Assembly (NCBI GenBank): GCA_028684885.1
Contig: JAQUFB010000006.1
Location: forward strand, 1-37,486
DNA from: Sulfurovum sp.
Lineage (GTDB): Bacteria > Campylobacterota > Campylobacteria > Campylobacterales > Sulfurovaceae
Reading direction: 5' to 3'
Length of the DNA stretch: 37,486 nt
Shown here: positions 3,084 through 36,999 of the stretch, in pieces
Layout of the letters: the number at the start of each line of letters is the position of its first letter
Numbering within the stretch: the stretch's first letter is position 1
The notes under the pieces: model-generated
What the model saw: only the letters and a program-made list of their open reading frames with translations
Database searches by the model: none
What the model was told of the DNA's origin: nothing
Program-made: the position numbers and the translations under genes

Positions 3084-3923
3084 ATGAAAAAAAAGCTTCA
3101 GAAACTCGCCGACATTTTCCTGGACTATCTGACGGATATCAGGGGGTATTCCGAGGCGACCGTCTCCACCTACGAGATCGCACTCAGACAGATGATGGAG
3201 GTAAGCCACTTCTACGAAGAAGAGGATACGCTTGTACTGGATATTACTCCTTACAGGTTTGGTATCGCCAAAAAGAACAGACACACTATTGCCGCCAGAC
3301 TGACAGCCATCCATTCATTTGCAAGGTACCTGGAAGAACAAAAAAACCTGCGTATCAGACTCATTGCAGGCGACTCCGTCAAAGTACCCAAAAACCTTCC
3401 CAAGCCCATCGAGGCGCACTATATCCGGGAGGTACTTCAAAGCGCTGCATTGCCTGACAGGCTGCTCATCACACTTCTCTATGGACTTGGGCTGCGTATC
3501 ACGGAGCTGAGCACGCTGCAGCTCTCACAGATTCAGAGAGAATGGGTACAGGTCAGAGGGAAAGGGAACAAGGTCAGAGAGTTGCCGCTTCTGCCGATGA
3601 TCAGAGAGATGATAGAAACCTATACCGATGCCTACGCCCCCAAAAAGTATCTCTTTGAAAAAGGGAATGTCCCCCTCAACAGCGCACAGCTGCGCTACAG
3701 ACTGACCAAGATTTTCAAAGCACACGGGATCAAAGCGACCCCGCACCAGCTGCGCCACTCCTTTGCCACCCACCTGCTCAATGAAGGAGCAAGGATCTCC
3801 GATGTCAGTGAACTCCTCGGACACGCCACGATGGCAACCACGCAGGTCTATACCAAACTCGGCACGGCAAAAAAAAAGGATGAGTACATGAAGGCACACC
3901 CGCTGGTGAAGAGTGAAGAGTGA
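3084..3923 (+). CDS. Tyrosine recombinase of the XerC/XerD/XerH type
   Basis: A 279-residue phage-integrase-family recombinase. The N-terminal SAM-like DNA-binding domain spans about 1-95 (FLDYLTDIRGYSEATVSTYE). The catalytic domain shows all active-site residues: R138 (GLGLRITEL), K160 (RGKGNKVRELPL), H221-x2-R224 (HQLRHSFATHLL), H247 (LLGHATMATTQVY) and nucleophile Y256. It starts at the base after the acyltransferase stop with no clear ribosome site, so translation is probably coupled. It could be the chromosome-dimer recombinase or an additional Xer protein; it is shorter than the roughly 350-residue XerH of Helicobacter and Campylobacter, and no dif-like site was recognised nearby. Its last codons (VKSEE-stop) are made by the first units of a heptanucleotide array, so the C-terminus is set by repeat number. 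Confidence 0.88.
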   Translation: MKKKLQKLADIFLDYLTDIRGYSEATVSTYEIALRQMMEVSHFYEEEDTLVLDITPYRFGIAKKNRHTIAARLTAIHSFARYLEEQKNLRIRLIAGDSVKVPKNLPKPIEAHYIREVLQSAALPDRLLITLLYGLGLRITELSTLQLSQIQREWVQVRGKGNKVRELPLLPMIREMIETYTDAYAPKKYLFEKGNVPLNSAQLRYRLTKIFKAHGIKATPHQLRHSFATHLLNEGARISDVSELLGHATMATTQVYTKLGTAKKKDEYMKAHPLVKSEE

Positions 3924-4010
3924 AGAGTGAAGAGTGAAGAGTGAAGAGTGAAGAGTAAGTAGTAAGTAGTAAGTAGTAAGTAGTAAGTAGTAAGTAGTAA
4001 GTAGTAAGTA
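3906..4010 (+). repeat. Heptanucleotide array: 7 x GTGAAGA followed by 8 x GTAAGTA
   Basis: Fifteen 7-base units without interruption over 105 bp: GTGAAGA seven times (3906-3954), then GTAAGTA eight times (3955-4010). The switch keeps the 7-base phase. The first units form the last codons and stop of the recombinase gene. Change by one unit would shift the frame, but all frames of the repeat soon meet a stop, so the effect would be limited to the C-terminal residues. Confidence 0.97.
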
Positions 4011-4249
4011 GTATCATGACAGTGTTATGATAAGGTGTCAAATGCTTTCGTCATCCTCGGGCTTGTACCCCAAGGGCATTTCCTACGGGCACCCGGGGAT
4101 CCACAGGTTGAAGTACATGAATATCTGGATTCGTAATTGGTCACAATAATAAACGTGGCAGGCTTTGCTAGGTTCCGGTAGGCTTTAAAAAAACCACCCT
4201 TGTTGGTGCGTGATTACGCACACTACGCGACAACATTACATTTTTCTGT
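4011..4249. repeat. Gene-free region with dispersed palindromic repeats, including one repeat nested in another
   Basis: No credible gene is seen between the heptamer array and the tilS stop. At 4050-4104 a palindrome of the type TCATCCTCGGGCTTG ... ACCCGGGGATCC is interrupted in its centre by TACCCCAAGGGCATTTCC and the bases TACGGGC. The inserted block recurs at 31385-31408 and, diverged, at 35425-35449. At 4204-4230 lies TGGTGCGTGATTACGCACAC plus TACGCGA, matching 22 of 27 bases of 31569-31595. Both repeats look like REP-type or MITE-like elements. Confidence 0.7.
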
Positions 4250-31208: not shown

Positions 31209-31636
31209 GATTCTCCCCTTCCCAAAGTAGAATGATAATATAGTTCTGCGATAGTATCAGAAAACGGGTGGAGAGTCAAGAGGAGCTGGGGTGTTCAGGT
31301 CATGCAAGGAGGGTAATGTTTATGAAAAAAGTGTGTTATCCCTGCTACGATACTATAAAAAAACTTACGGAAGTAGAGACTTTCACCCCAAGGGTATTTC
31401 CTACGGGCCGTCCCACAACCCACAACTATGTTTTTAGCATAAAGAAGCAGTTGCCTTCAGAATGTTTCTATCGTTTTTGAGAAAAAACTTAAAAGTATCC
31501 CGCTTTTAGGTGGGGCTAAAGCCTCCACTTCCCAATCAATACAAGTTATTTCACAATCTCCTGCCTCTTGATGCGTGGTTACACATCCTACGCGAAAGGA
31601 CTTATCCCTCTGTTGCAAAAAGGGATCGTATAATAC
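31209..31636. repeat. Gene-poor region with dispersed repeats
   Basis: No convincing gene. It holds the lipoprotein promoter area (minus-strand TATATTATCAT), the 24-bp element ACCCCAAGGGTATTTCCTAC plus GGGC (31385-31408), a hairpin GTGGGGC-taaa-GCCTCCAC (31510-31528, one bulge) and TGATGCGTGGTTACACATCC plus TACGCGA (31569-31595), which matches the copy at 4204-4230. A 54-codon frame beginning at 31316 has a good AAGGAGGG site but is largely repeat sequence. Confidence 0.6.
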
Positions 31637-33526: not shown

Positions 33527-33553
33527 TTGAAAAATCCATTTTTAAAGTATCCG

Positions 33554-35380
33554 ATGATGCCATTTAAAACACTTTTCTACAAACCGCTTTCAAGTACGCT
33601 CACCGTGACCTCGATCAACGGGTTCCACCTCAGGCCTGCAGCGAAATTCGCCACCGAAGCCAAACAGTTTCTCTGCGATATTCATATCGAGTTTGACCAG
33701 AAAAGAGTCAATGCAAAAGCGGTCAATGCGATCCTCTCTCTCAACCTTGACAGGGAGGATACGTTTACCCTGACTGCCCATGGGAAGGATGCGAAAAAAG
33801 CGATCGAAATACTCAGGGATACCTTTGCGACACTTATGAACGCAGAGAGCGAACCAAAACAGATAGTAAAGCGGAATACCTCTTACCAAAGTCCCACACT
33901 CTCAGGTGAGATCATCAGTGAGGGGATTGCGGTAGGAAGCCTGCATCGTTTCACTGTCCGGGAGGTAGCGCATGCATCACTGTGTTCCTTTGAAGAAGCG
34001 CTCAAAAAGAGTGGCGATGAGCTGGAGAGGCTCTATGCCCATTCCAAAAAAAATGCGGATGCACCTATCTATCTGGCACAAAAAGCCCTGCTTCTCTCAC
34101 TCGCTGAGGGGATCGATACGCTTGAAGATTTCATCGCACGTATCGAAGCCGAAAAAGAGGGCCTCAAACATGGGCGGCATGCAACAAAGATCGCAGATCT
34201 CAACGACCTGCTTTACCGGATCAAAAAACAGATGGGATATGACTATCAGGTTTCACTGCCAAAAACCCCGTTTATTCTGAGTGCGGATGACCTGCTTCCG
34301 GGCCAGATCAAGATCCTTGAGAACAGTACGGTGCTTGGTGTTGTGCTGACAAACGGTTCCTTGACTTCGCATACAGCGATCCTTCTGCGTGCAGCTGGCA
34401 TCCCCTCTCTTTTGCTGGACAGCCCTATGCACAGGGAAGAAAAGAAAGTGATCCTGGATGCCTACAGCGGCGTGATCGTCATTCAGCCTTCGCCGGAAGA
34501 TCTGATACAAGCCTTCAGGCGACAGAACGAGGATGAAAAACTGCAGCTTGAGATCCGACAAAACCGTTTCACTCCCGCCCTCACCAAATCAGGAGAAAAG
34601 ATCAACCTCTTTGCCAATGTCTCCGACCTCGACTCTGCAAAGCGTGCCAAGGAGGAGGGTGCAGAGGGTATCGGTCTGCTGCGATCGGAGTTTCTTTTCA
34701 AAACACACAAACCCATCATCAGGGATCAGGTCAAAGCCTACCGTGCGATCTTTGATCTCTTCGAGGATGTCACGGTACGTACCCTTGATGTGGGCGGAGA
34801 CAAGGCACTCCCCTATATCGATATTCCCAAAGAACAGAACCCCTTTCTGGGTATTCGCGGTATCAGGCTGTTAAAGACCGAACCTAAACTGCTTGAGGAG
34901 CAGCTGGAGGCGATCTTCCTTGCCGCGGAGAACAGGCCGGTCAAAGTGATGTTCCCGATGATCAGCACACCCGAGGAGTTCAGCGAAGCCAAAAGTTTTG
35001 CTCTCAATATCGCCCTTGAAAAAGATATCCCCATCGACAAGCTGCGTTTCGGCATGATGATCGAGGTTCCCTCCGTACTCTTTGCGCTCCGGGAGTTCAA
35101 CGATCTTGTGGATTTCTACTCTATCGGCACCAACGACCTGGCGCAGTACCTTTTTGCCGTGGAGCGCACCCACCCTACCCTCAAGATCGACCCCGCTTCC
35201 CCGATACTTTTTGATGTCATCAGGCATGTGATGAAGGAGTCGACCAGGCCGGTCAGTCTCTGCGGCGAACTGGCAGGGGATACACGAGCGATCCCTCAGC
35301 TTCTTGAAACCGGTATCCGCACACTCTCCGTCTCGGGAAAACGTATCGGACAGATCAAGGAGAGAATAAGAAATGTTTAA
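33554..35380 (+). CDS. ptsI: Fused HPr-Enzyme I of the sugar phosphotransferase system
   Basis: A 608-residue fusion of the two general PTS proteins. HPr (about 15-95): the phosphorylated His25 is in NGFHLRPAAKF, while the regulatory Ser46 site reads NAKAVNAILSL with Ala, so HPr-kinase control is not expected. Enzyme I follows: SGEIISEGIAVGSLHRF, phospho-His about 273 in NGSLTSHTAILLRAAGIPSL, RSEFLF, RTLDVGGDKALPY, MFPMISTPEEF, MIEVPSVLFALREF and the PEP-site block SIGTNDLAQYLFAVERTH and LCGELAGD. It takes phosphate from PEP and passes it to an EIIA, which is absent here. The first Met choices are 33554 or 33557; no strong ribosome site is visible. The stop lies in the first copy of a 13-bp direct repeat. 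Confidence 0.92.
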   Translation: MMPFKTLFYKPLSSTLTVTSINGFHLRPAAKFATEAKQFLCDIHIEFDQKRVNAKAVNAILSLNLDREDTFTLTAHGKDAKKAIEILRDTFATLMNAESEPKQIVKRNTSYQSPTLSGEIISEGIAVGSLHRFTVREVAHASLCSFEEALKKSGDELERLYAHSKKNADAPIYLAQKALLLSLAEGIDTLEDFIARIEAEKEGLKHGRHATKIADLNDLLYRIKKQMGYDYQVSLPKTPFILSADDLLPGQIKILENSTVLGVVLTNGSLTSHTAILLRAAGIPSLLLDSPMHREEKKVILDAYSGVIVIQPSPEDLIQAFRRQNEDEKLQLEIRQNRFTPALTKSGEKINLFANVSDLDSAKRAKEEGAEGIGLLRSEFLFKTHKPIIRDQVKAYRAIFDLFEDVTVRTLDVGGDKALPYIDIPKEQNPFLGIRGIRLLKTEPKLLEEQLEAIFLAAENRPVKVMFPMISTPEEFSEAKSFALNIALEKDIPIDKLRFGMMIEVPSVLFALREFNDLVDFYSIGTNDLAQYLFAVERTHPTLKIDPASPILFDVIRHVMKESTRPVSLCGELAGDTRAIPQLLETGIRTLSVSGKRIGQIKERIRNV

Positions 35381-35629
35381 CGCTATAGAGAATCATCAAA
35401 TGAAACGCGACCAGTCGCGTGAGCACCCCAAGGGCACTTCTTTCAGGGCGCTCTCTGCTGAAGACAAGCAACTATATTGCAGTACAAGTGAAGCACTAAA
35501 TGCTGAATCGTGGAACCCAGTGTTAACAATCTCAAATAAAGAAAGTTGCCTGAACGGCAAGTTTTTTAACAGAGACAGGATGGAGCTTTGCTCTATCTCC
35601 GTCCTTCAAATGGAGCTAAGAAATGTTTA
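35367..35629 (+). mobile_element. 250-bp insertion flanked by a perfect 13-bp direct repeat, between the HPr-EI and EIICB genes
   Basis: TAAGAAATGTTTA occurs at 35367-35379 (EI stop) and again at 35617-35629 (EIICB start), exactly 250 bases apart. Without the insert, the EI end (RNV-stop) and the EIICB start (ATGTTTAG) would overlap as one stretch. The insert holds CGCGA-ccag-TCGCG (35406-35419), a diverged copy of the 24-bp element (35425-35449), a terminator-like hairpin TTGCC-tgaac-GGCAA with six T bases (35546-35567) and a hairpin at 35578-35598. It has no credible gene or terminal inverted repeats. Confidence 0.7.
35542..35598 (+). promoter_or_regulatory. Two-hairpin leader of the EIICB gene, first hairpin terminator-like
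   Basis: Hairpin 1, TTGCC-tgaac-GGCAA followed by GTTTTTT, could end transcription coming from ptsI. Hairpin 2 (35578-35598) has a 9-bp stem with two G-U pairs around TTT: GGATGGAGC-ttt-GCTCTATCT. The pair resembles the leader at 2379-2441. Confidence 0.5.
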
Positions 35630-36999
35630 GTCTGCTCCAGAAGATCGGGAAAGCCCTGATGACACCCATCGCGGTGCTGCCGGTAGCGGCACTGCTGCTG
35701 CGCCTGGGCTTTGGCGATATCTTTGACGGAGAGATCGCAGCCATCATGAAGAGTGCGGGCGAAGCGGTCTTCTCTCACCTTGACCTGCTCTTTGGAATCG
35801 GCATCGCCTACGGACTGGCAAAGAACAACGACGGTGCCGCTGCGCTCTCCGGAGCGATCGGCGTGCTGATCGCCAAAGCGGTTTACAGCACGATCGACGA
35901 AAGTGTCAACATGGGAGTCTTTGTCGGGATCATCATCGGGGTGCTTGCCGGGACCCTCTACAACCGCTATCATGCGATCAAGCTTCCGGAGTTTCTCGGC
36001 TTCTTCGGAGGTAAACGCTTTGTGCCGATCATCACAGCGATCTCCGCCATCGGTGTCGGGATACTGGCAGGATACTTCTGGCACTATGCCCAGGGAGCGA
36101 TCGACAGTTTTTCCAACCTTATCATCGGCCTAAAAGAGTTCGGTACCTTCATCTACGGGACACTCAACCGTACGCTCATCCCGCTTGGGCTGCACCATAT
36201 CCTCAACTCGGTCTTCTGGTTCCAGCTGGGCGAGTACACCTACCTCAAAGAGGGGGTAGAAGTCGTCGCCAACGGCGATCTTCACCGTTTCTTTGCAGGA
36301 GACAAGAGTGCGGGGGTCTATATGGCAGGCTTCTATGTGGTGATGATGTTCGGGCTGCCGGCCATGGCACTGGCGATCTACCTCAATACCCCGAACTCCT
36401 ACCGCAAAAAGGCAGGGGCGATCCTTGCCGGGGTGGCGTTTACCTCGTTCCTTACAGGGATCACAGAACCGTTGGAGTTCCTCTTTCTGTTTGTCGCTCC
36501 TGTGCTTTTTTTACTGCATGTACTCCTTACGGGACTGGCGCTGGCAAGTGCACAGATGCTCGATATCCATGCGGGATTCGGTTTCTCTGCAGGATTTATC
36601 GACTACCTGATCAACTACAAACTGGCGACCAACCCGCTGCTGCTGCTTCCATTGGGTGCGATATTTGCAGTGCTCTATTTTTTCACAAGCTACTACACGA
36701 TCAGAGTGCTGAAACTGCGGATCTTTGAAGAGGCACAGAGTGAAAATAATCTGCAAAGCGATGAGGAAGCGATGGCTTTTATCGCTGCACTGGGCGGGAA
36801 TGAAAACATCCTCGATACCGATGCCTGTATCACCAGGCTCCGCATGCGCGTCAATGACAGCAGCGGACTCAAAGATGAGGATTTTGTGGCACTGGGCGCC
36901 AAAGGGGTGATACGCCCCGACAGACAGACGATACAGATCGTGCTGGGAAGCAGGTCTGAAAAGGTGGCGGAGAAGATCAAAGAAGCACTGGGAGGATGA
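35623..36999 (+). CDS. PTS EIICB permease of the glucose/N-acetylglucosamine class
   Basis: A 458-residue membrane transporter that imports and phosphorylates a sugar. The EIIC domain (about 1-375) has some ten helices with family marks LLQKIGKALMTPIAVLPVAA, YGLAKNNDGAAALSGAIGVL, IPLGLHHILNSVFWFQLGEY and the substrate loop FLTGITEPLEFLFLFVAP. The EIIB domain (about 385-458) carries the phosphocysteine C402 in TDACITRLRMR. GlcNAc or glucose is the likely substrate; GITEPLEF and the overall layout favour a NagE-like GlcNAc permease, with low certainty. No EIIA domain is attached. GGAG lies 7 bases before ATG 35623 and comes from the insertion. Sugar PTS genes are uncommon in this phylum, so transfer is possible. 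Confidence 0.88.
   Translation: MFSLLQKIGKALMTPIAVLPVAALLLRLGFGDIFDGEIAAIMKSAGEAVFSHLDLLFGIGIAYGLAKNNDGAAALSGAIGVLIAKAVYSTIDESVNMGVFVGIIIGVLAGTLYNRYHAIKLPEFLGFFGGKRFVPIITAISAIGVGILAGYFWHYAQGAIDSFSNLIIGLKEFGTFIYGTLNRTLIPLGLHHILNSVFWFQLGEYTYLKEGVEVVANGDLHRFFAGDKSAGVYMAGFYVVMMFGLPAMALAIYLNTPNSYRKKAGAILAGVAFTSFLTGITEPLEFLFLFVAPVLFLLHVLLTGLALASAQMLDIHAGFGFSAGFIDYLINYKLATNPLLLLPLGAIFAVLYFFTSYYTIRVLKLRIFEEAQSENNLQSDEEAMAFIAALGGNENILDTDACITRLRMRVNDSSGLKDEDFVALGAKGVIRPDRQTIQIVLGSRSEKVAEKIKEALGG

Follow-up and report, generated by a model that had tools for sequence, protein, structure and literature searches.

The stretch of DNA analysed here, referred to as the window, comprises 37,486 nucleotides of contig JAQUFB010000006.1 from Sulfurovum sp. 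and carries an HPr-enzyme I (ptsI-type) gene followed on the same strand by a gene for an EIICB permease, with an inserted element between them (Table 1). The perfect repeat predicted at both edges of the insert was confirmed, as TAAGAAATGTTTA is present as two identical 13-mers spaced 250 bp from start to start. The left copy ends at the ptsI stop codon TAA (35378-35380) and the right copy includes the EIICB start, and both restored gene ends are present as originally described. The exact repeat is shorter than the 37-43 bp found at most other sites of the family (see below). Alignment of one flank to the other runs past the 13 bp with divergence, extending over approximately 40 bp (score 15, 95th percentile of the null), and 13 bp is thus the minimum length of the duplication.

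Table 1. Features of the ptsI-EIICB junction in the window.
Feature	Position	Strand	Description
HPr-enzyme I (ptsI-type) gene	33527..35380	+	ORF and Pfam (PTS-HPr, PEP-utilizers)
Left target-duplication copy	35367..35379	+	Exact core of 13 bp; the full copy is probably longer and diverged
Bridging ORF	35373..35630	+	85 codons; start is the duplicated EIICB ATG
Inserted element E	35380..35616	+	237 bp; missing in ~20 relatives, with relatives elsewhere in its own genome
Hairpin H1	35405..35420	+	ACGCGA-CCAG-TCGCGT; covariation
Optional module 0	35424..35451	+	CACCCCAAGGGCACTTC..GGGCG; motif also alone in other intergenic repeats
P2 5' arm and loop GCTGA	35452..35461	+	Possible pseudoknot partner CCCAG near 35517-35521
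Optional module 1	35464..35511	+	Two CTAWA-loop hairpins; ~48 nt in relatives
Optional module 2	35527..35577	+	Outer stem CAATCTC..GAGACA, inner TTGCC-TGAAC-GGCAA plus GTTTTTT; terminator-like
Terminal hairpin P4	35579..35597	+	GATGGAGC-TTT-GCTCTATC; then CGTCC at 35600-35604
Right target-duplication copy	35617..35629	+	Includes the EIICB start
EIICB permease gene	35623..36999	+	ATG at 35623; ORF and Pfam

The nearest relatives, identified by a ptsI protein search, are metagenome-assembled genomes labelled Sulfurovum sp., Epsilonproteobacteria or Campylobacterales, and the four nearest records all have an empty site. At approximately 20 orthologous loci the junction is compact, with ptsI ending in ...GTT TAG/TAA, EIICB starting with ATGTTTA, an overlap of 8 nt between the genes, and the repeat present only once (...TAAGA(G/A)ATGTTTAGTCTG...). 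The claim that the genes once overlapped and that a short insert entered with target duplication was thereby borne out; these relatives lack the spacer altogether rather than carrying it without the repeat, and the family has many further copies. A tree of EIICB places the lineage of the window amid empty neighbours (JAQVHV, JACXUO, G001/DSDW, G029 and G034), and because it is nested among them the insert represents a gain and not an ancestral spacer. G020, placed elsewhere in the tree, has a family copy of its own at this junction, which is an independent second insertion. In G016 (L133) the junction holds 87 bp of inserted DNA, unrelated to the family, between copies of ATGTTTRA and with an open bridging frame, and a long spacer is present in G036. 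The GGAG preceding EIICB had been attributed to the element. The motif is there as described, but GGAG is found in nearly the same position in the empty relatives; it need not derive from the element, and the duplicated target is a possible source.

A search of the window's own genome at the DNA level detected relatives of the insert at about a dozen places. Aligned cores share H1 (a stem with a YYAG loop), GAGC, P2 with the loop GCTGA, a CTCAGC-like segment downstream that is able to pair with the P2 loop (a possible pseudoknot), and GTTAGC. For H1 and P2 together, 88.8% of the alignment cells are paired and nine pairs show two-sided changes, with a covariation score of 0.517 versus 0.226 in shuffled alignments (reached in 0/500). 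Pairing of the P2 loop is compatible with the alignment, which tests it weakly since the positions are mostly conserved, with G-U variation. Copies are distinguished by optional inserts, namely a CACCCCAAGGGC hairpin inside GAGC..P2, a hairpin pair of roughly 48 nt within P2, and, following GTTA(A/G)C, a hairpin resembling a terminator, and the unit with its covarying H1 and P2 amounts to ~85-250 bp. The window copy holds all three modules. Its predicted hairpin with a T-run was found at 35546-35560, terminator-like and with a 5-bp stem followed by GTTTTTT, and the 5' boundary of the element is diffuse. Module presence can vary even at one site, as L237 is without module 1 in G000 and with it in G001 and G070. 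As a side observation, a CACCCCAAGGGCATTTCCTACGGGCA motif related to module 0 occurs alone in intergenic and repeat contexts (4050-4102 and 31384-31410 of the window, L020-L025) and looks like a separate mini-repeat able to nest in other elements.

With a covariance model of the core, 788 matches were obtained in 58 of the 61 genomes of the genus Sulfurovum, with up to 79 per genome. Among genera sampled from the order Campylobacterales, 17 of 61 gave matches to the model, and among those sampled from the phylum 10 of 48 did so, every one of the latter in the same order; the E-values behind these counts are rough, owing to a short calibration. Rfam searched at permissive thresholds with the window copy and shorter copies yielded nothing convincing or near the gathering score, and virus contigs gave no match to the core pattern. 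Identical copies in G300 were set aside as candidates for recent transposition; they adjoin 23S rRNA genes, were probably homogenised by the rRNA operons and are therefore uninformative on this point.

Target duplications at other copies were evaluated by local alignment of the left against the right flank of 118 copies, with swapped flanks as the null. Eighteen copies exceeded the 99th percentile of the swapped flanks, several of them being tandem copies or tRNA genes, which leaves roughly nine to ten separate true sites; a few further sites, the window included, lie near the threshold. In total, the 118 copies include only about a dozen independent sites whose flank duplication rises above the null or comes near it; in the other copies the duplication may have decayed or never existed. 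Seven sites were then resolved by matching a chimeric query to relatives. Of the other copies that had been anticipated, the family has many, and seven more sites across genomes have flanking duplications. The lengths at the eight sites are variable, with 13 bp in the window, 19 bp at L154, 37 bp at L237, 38 bp at a hisF start, 39 bp at L239 in the tail of dnaK, 41 bp at L248, 43 bp at L251 and 55 bp at C80, those outside the window being BLAST overlaps that may be a few bases off. At six of these seven sites the empty relatives are contiguous through the site and the target is single; the exception is L239, where the empty relatives match the dnaK side only and the site rests on the repeated flank in filled genomes. 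Since the left and right target copies have diverged, most insertions are old. The duplications span gene starts or ends, a bias that may reflect both tolerance of such insertions and the loss of recognisable duplications outside coding sequence.

Two further observations concern the repeated targets. At L237, L260 and L281 the two target copies of any one genome agree at a variable position (C in G000, T in G001 and G070), a possible sign of gene conversion across the ~120-170 bp that separate them. Tandem target-plus-element arrays with runs of N at L017 (G000:C89:5036 on) and L162 (G011) suggest expansion via recombination between target copies.

These sites bear on whether the family is mobile at all. 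A conserved structured regulatory RNA or terminator spread by ordinary duplication or template switching would agree with sites often common to several species (e.g., L152/L153/L160 and L155/L170) and with the terminator-like module, but several loci with empty sites and clean target duplications largely refute it, as do two independent insertions at one junction, and we regard it as very improbable. The family is a new one, consisting of non-autonomous REP/YPAL-like mobile elements with unusually long and variable target duplications.

The ends of the element and the length of the duplication argue against a classical MITE, that is, a deletion derivative of an insertion sequence with a DDE transposase, terminal inverted repeats and a fixed, short duplication. 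The element is short, multi-copy and mostly intergenic, as a MITE would be, and imperfect outer inverted repeats occur in G011 and in family f20, for example TTAGACTTCTTGCA..TGCAAGAACTCTAA. However, the window copy has no terminal inverted repeat pairing its two ends, none was seen by eye in the other copies with long duplications, and the duplications of 13-55 bp are too variable for this class. A parent element was not found and the copies viewed have no ORF between H1 and P4. Overall, a classical MITE is unlikely. Like the Correia/NEMIS, RUP and ERIC MITEs, the elements are short, dispersed near genes and without a transposase of their own; unlike here, those have terminal inverted repeats and short duplications. 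Within G011, two subfamilies that look young, L208-L217 and L218-L235, have outer inverted repeats that are imperfect; mosaics with the 5' part from one subfamily and the 3' part from the other were also observed.

The terminal hairpin P4 points in another direction. In 66 of 77 distinct copies free of module 1, a hairpin is followed by NGTY, the commonest form being GTA-G..TTT..C-GTC, a count that also takes in some hairpins of module 2 that satisfy this rule. The arms vary among copies and yet pair within each, with 95% pairing for the own partner (inflated, as hairpins were chosen for pairing) versus 57% for swapped partners. Most of the 66 copies have GTAG at the 5' foot and CGTC at the 3' foot, and the window copy has kept CGTC and lost GTAG. 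Both tags have been reported as REP tags in Sulfurovum NBC37-1, and the CGTC class is without a known transposase (PMC3733652); a word search of that paper on GTAG/CGTC REPs gave no mention of target duplication. REPs measure 20-40 bp, in contrast to the ~85-250 bp unit with further conserved hairpins described here.

Because the tags match REP superfamilies, a RAYT partner is suggested, and P4, with its GTAG-palindrome-CGTC organisation, would fit a REP-type element mobilised by a Y1 transposase (RAYT/TnpA-REP). Nevertheless, no correlation between copy number and the number of Y1_Tnp genes was observed (rho 0.17, p 0.19), and Y1_Tnp is missing from eight genomes that carry at least 10 copies, although presence or absence in draft genomes is imperfect evidence, for this enzyme as for the reverse transcriptases considered next. 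Y1 transposition is not known to generate target duplications. CGTC repeats also lack a dedicated transposase (PMC3733652), and mobilisation by Y1 therefore appears improbable.

A SINE-like retroposon, whose RNA would be copied by a reverse transcriptase in trans with target priming, would be consistent with the conserved and covarying RNA-like fold, with a conserved 3' end next to a variable 5' side and with long, variable duplications. Nevertheless, RVT_1 was found in only 16 of 61 genomes and not in G011, which carries 72-79 copies, and reverse transcriptases are not correlated with copy number (rho -0.08, p 0.54), making this origin quite unlikely.

The closest behavioural precedent found is YPAL, or RU-2, of Yersinia, a likeness in behaviour and not drawn from sequence. 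This ~170-bp element is likewise non-autonomous with internal palindromes and without TA termini, has filled and empty sites, and generates target duplications of variable length, 3-26 bp (PMC2229807). The present family differs by duplications of up to ~55 bp, by its modular build with H1, P2 (possible pseudoknot) and a GTAG/CGTC P4, and by its phylum.

Inspection of the open reading frames showed that the insert is not strictly non-coding as had been assumed, since the forward frame 35373-35630 is open throughout its length and connects both genes. This bridging ORF overlaps the ptsI stop by 8 nt at its start, and its end (...AGA AAT GTT TAG) overlaps the real EIICB start by 8 nt, reproducing the original ptsI/EIICB geometry. 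The same arrangement is found in G020 (39 codons) and G016 (33 codons), and the junction periods of 250 (window), 112 and 94 are all 1 mod 3. In shuffled sequences the chance of an open frame was 0.015, 0.073 and 0.16 for the three ORFs, and multiplication of these values by 1/3 each gives ~7e-6. This figure was calculated post hoc, leaves other acceptable outcomes out of account and comes from a test conceived once the data were known, on three loci, one of them with the unrelated insert. An in-frame fusion (period 0 mod 3) might also be tolerable. The GTAG, which would have closed the bridging frame in G020, has been lost from that copy. Pfam gave no match for the 85-aa product of the window nor for a 70-aa bridging ORF at C80, and these are thus not known proteins.

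Rickettsia palindromic elements, of which RPE-4 and RPE-6 correspond to CGTC repeats (PMC3733652), are structured repeats of 100-150 bp readable as protein. The present repeats are likewise structured, but their forward frames are depleted of ORFs and the genes are restored by target duplication, not by in-frame fusion. A generally coding element of the RPE kind was rejected for the forward strand, on which only 7 of 162 frames are open versus 26.5 expected. On the reverse strand, bridges into a restored gene start were observed in L237-type copies (56 or 72 codons) and at C80 (70 codons, ending in ATGA); as the number of open reverse frames is close to that expected by chance (39 versus 40), these cases are only illustrative.

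The original prediction also held that the element may uncouple the permease from ptsI. As three filled junctions carry an open ORF overlapping both neighbours, translational coupling is probably kept, relayed through the bridging ORF, judging from the arrangement of the reading frames, and uncoupling is less likely, although the weak terminator-like hairpin may still lower transcription into EIICB.

Taken together, we consider the following course of events probable. One copy of a non-autonomous, structured Campylobacterales family would have entered the 8-nt ptsI/EIICB overlap through staggered breaks, whose filling-in would leave a direct target duplication on each side; the duplication itself is evident from the empty sites, and the enzyme and its chemistry are deduced. 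With the target duplicated, the end of ptsI and the start of EIICB no longer had to share the same bases, which is why the insertion was tolerated. In the copy that persisted, the frame from the duplicated EIICB start stays open across the element and stops in the duplicated ptsI end, such that ribosomes leaving ptsI could restart on the 85-codon ORF and pass on to EIICB by relayed stop-start coupling, possibly with reduced transcription into EIICB due to the terminator-like hairpin. Since it is the folded strand that is conserved, the element may be recognised as single-stranded DNA or RNA. That this amounts to an undescribed class of mobile element, with variable staggered cuts of 13-55 bp made by a probably widespread host or trans enzyme on a folded strand and with persistence at closely coupled gene junctions as relay ORFs that maintain translational coupling, is a tentative suggestion.

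The order-wide family missing from Rfam joins the poorly understood palindromic repeats without a known transposase, and its target duplications are unusually long given the small size of the element. The many loci with empty and filled sites open the mechanism of insertion to testing. The case also illustrates how overlapping genes can survive an insertion unharmed: duplication of the target restores the two of them, and translation from one gene to the next can be preserved by a bridging ORF.

Repeats of another kind were also noted in this genome. Adjacent perfect heptamer arrays, (GTGAAGA)7 and (AGTAAGT)8.6, are located at 3906-4013 of the window, and similar arrays flank several intergenic regions elsewhere (L019, L021 and L023).
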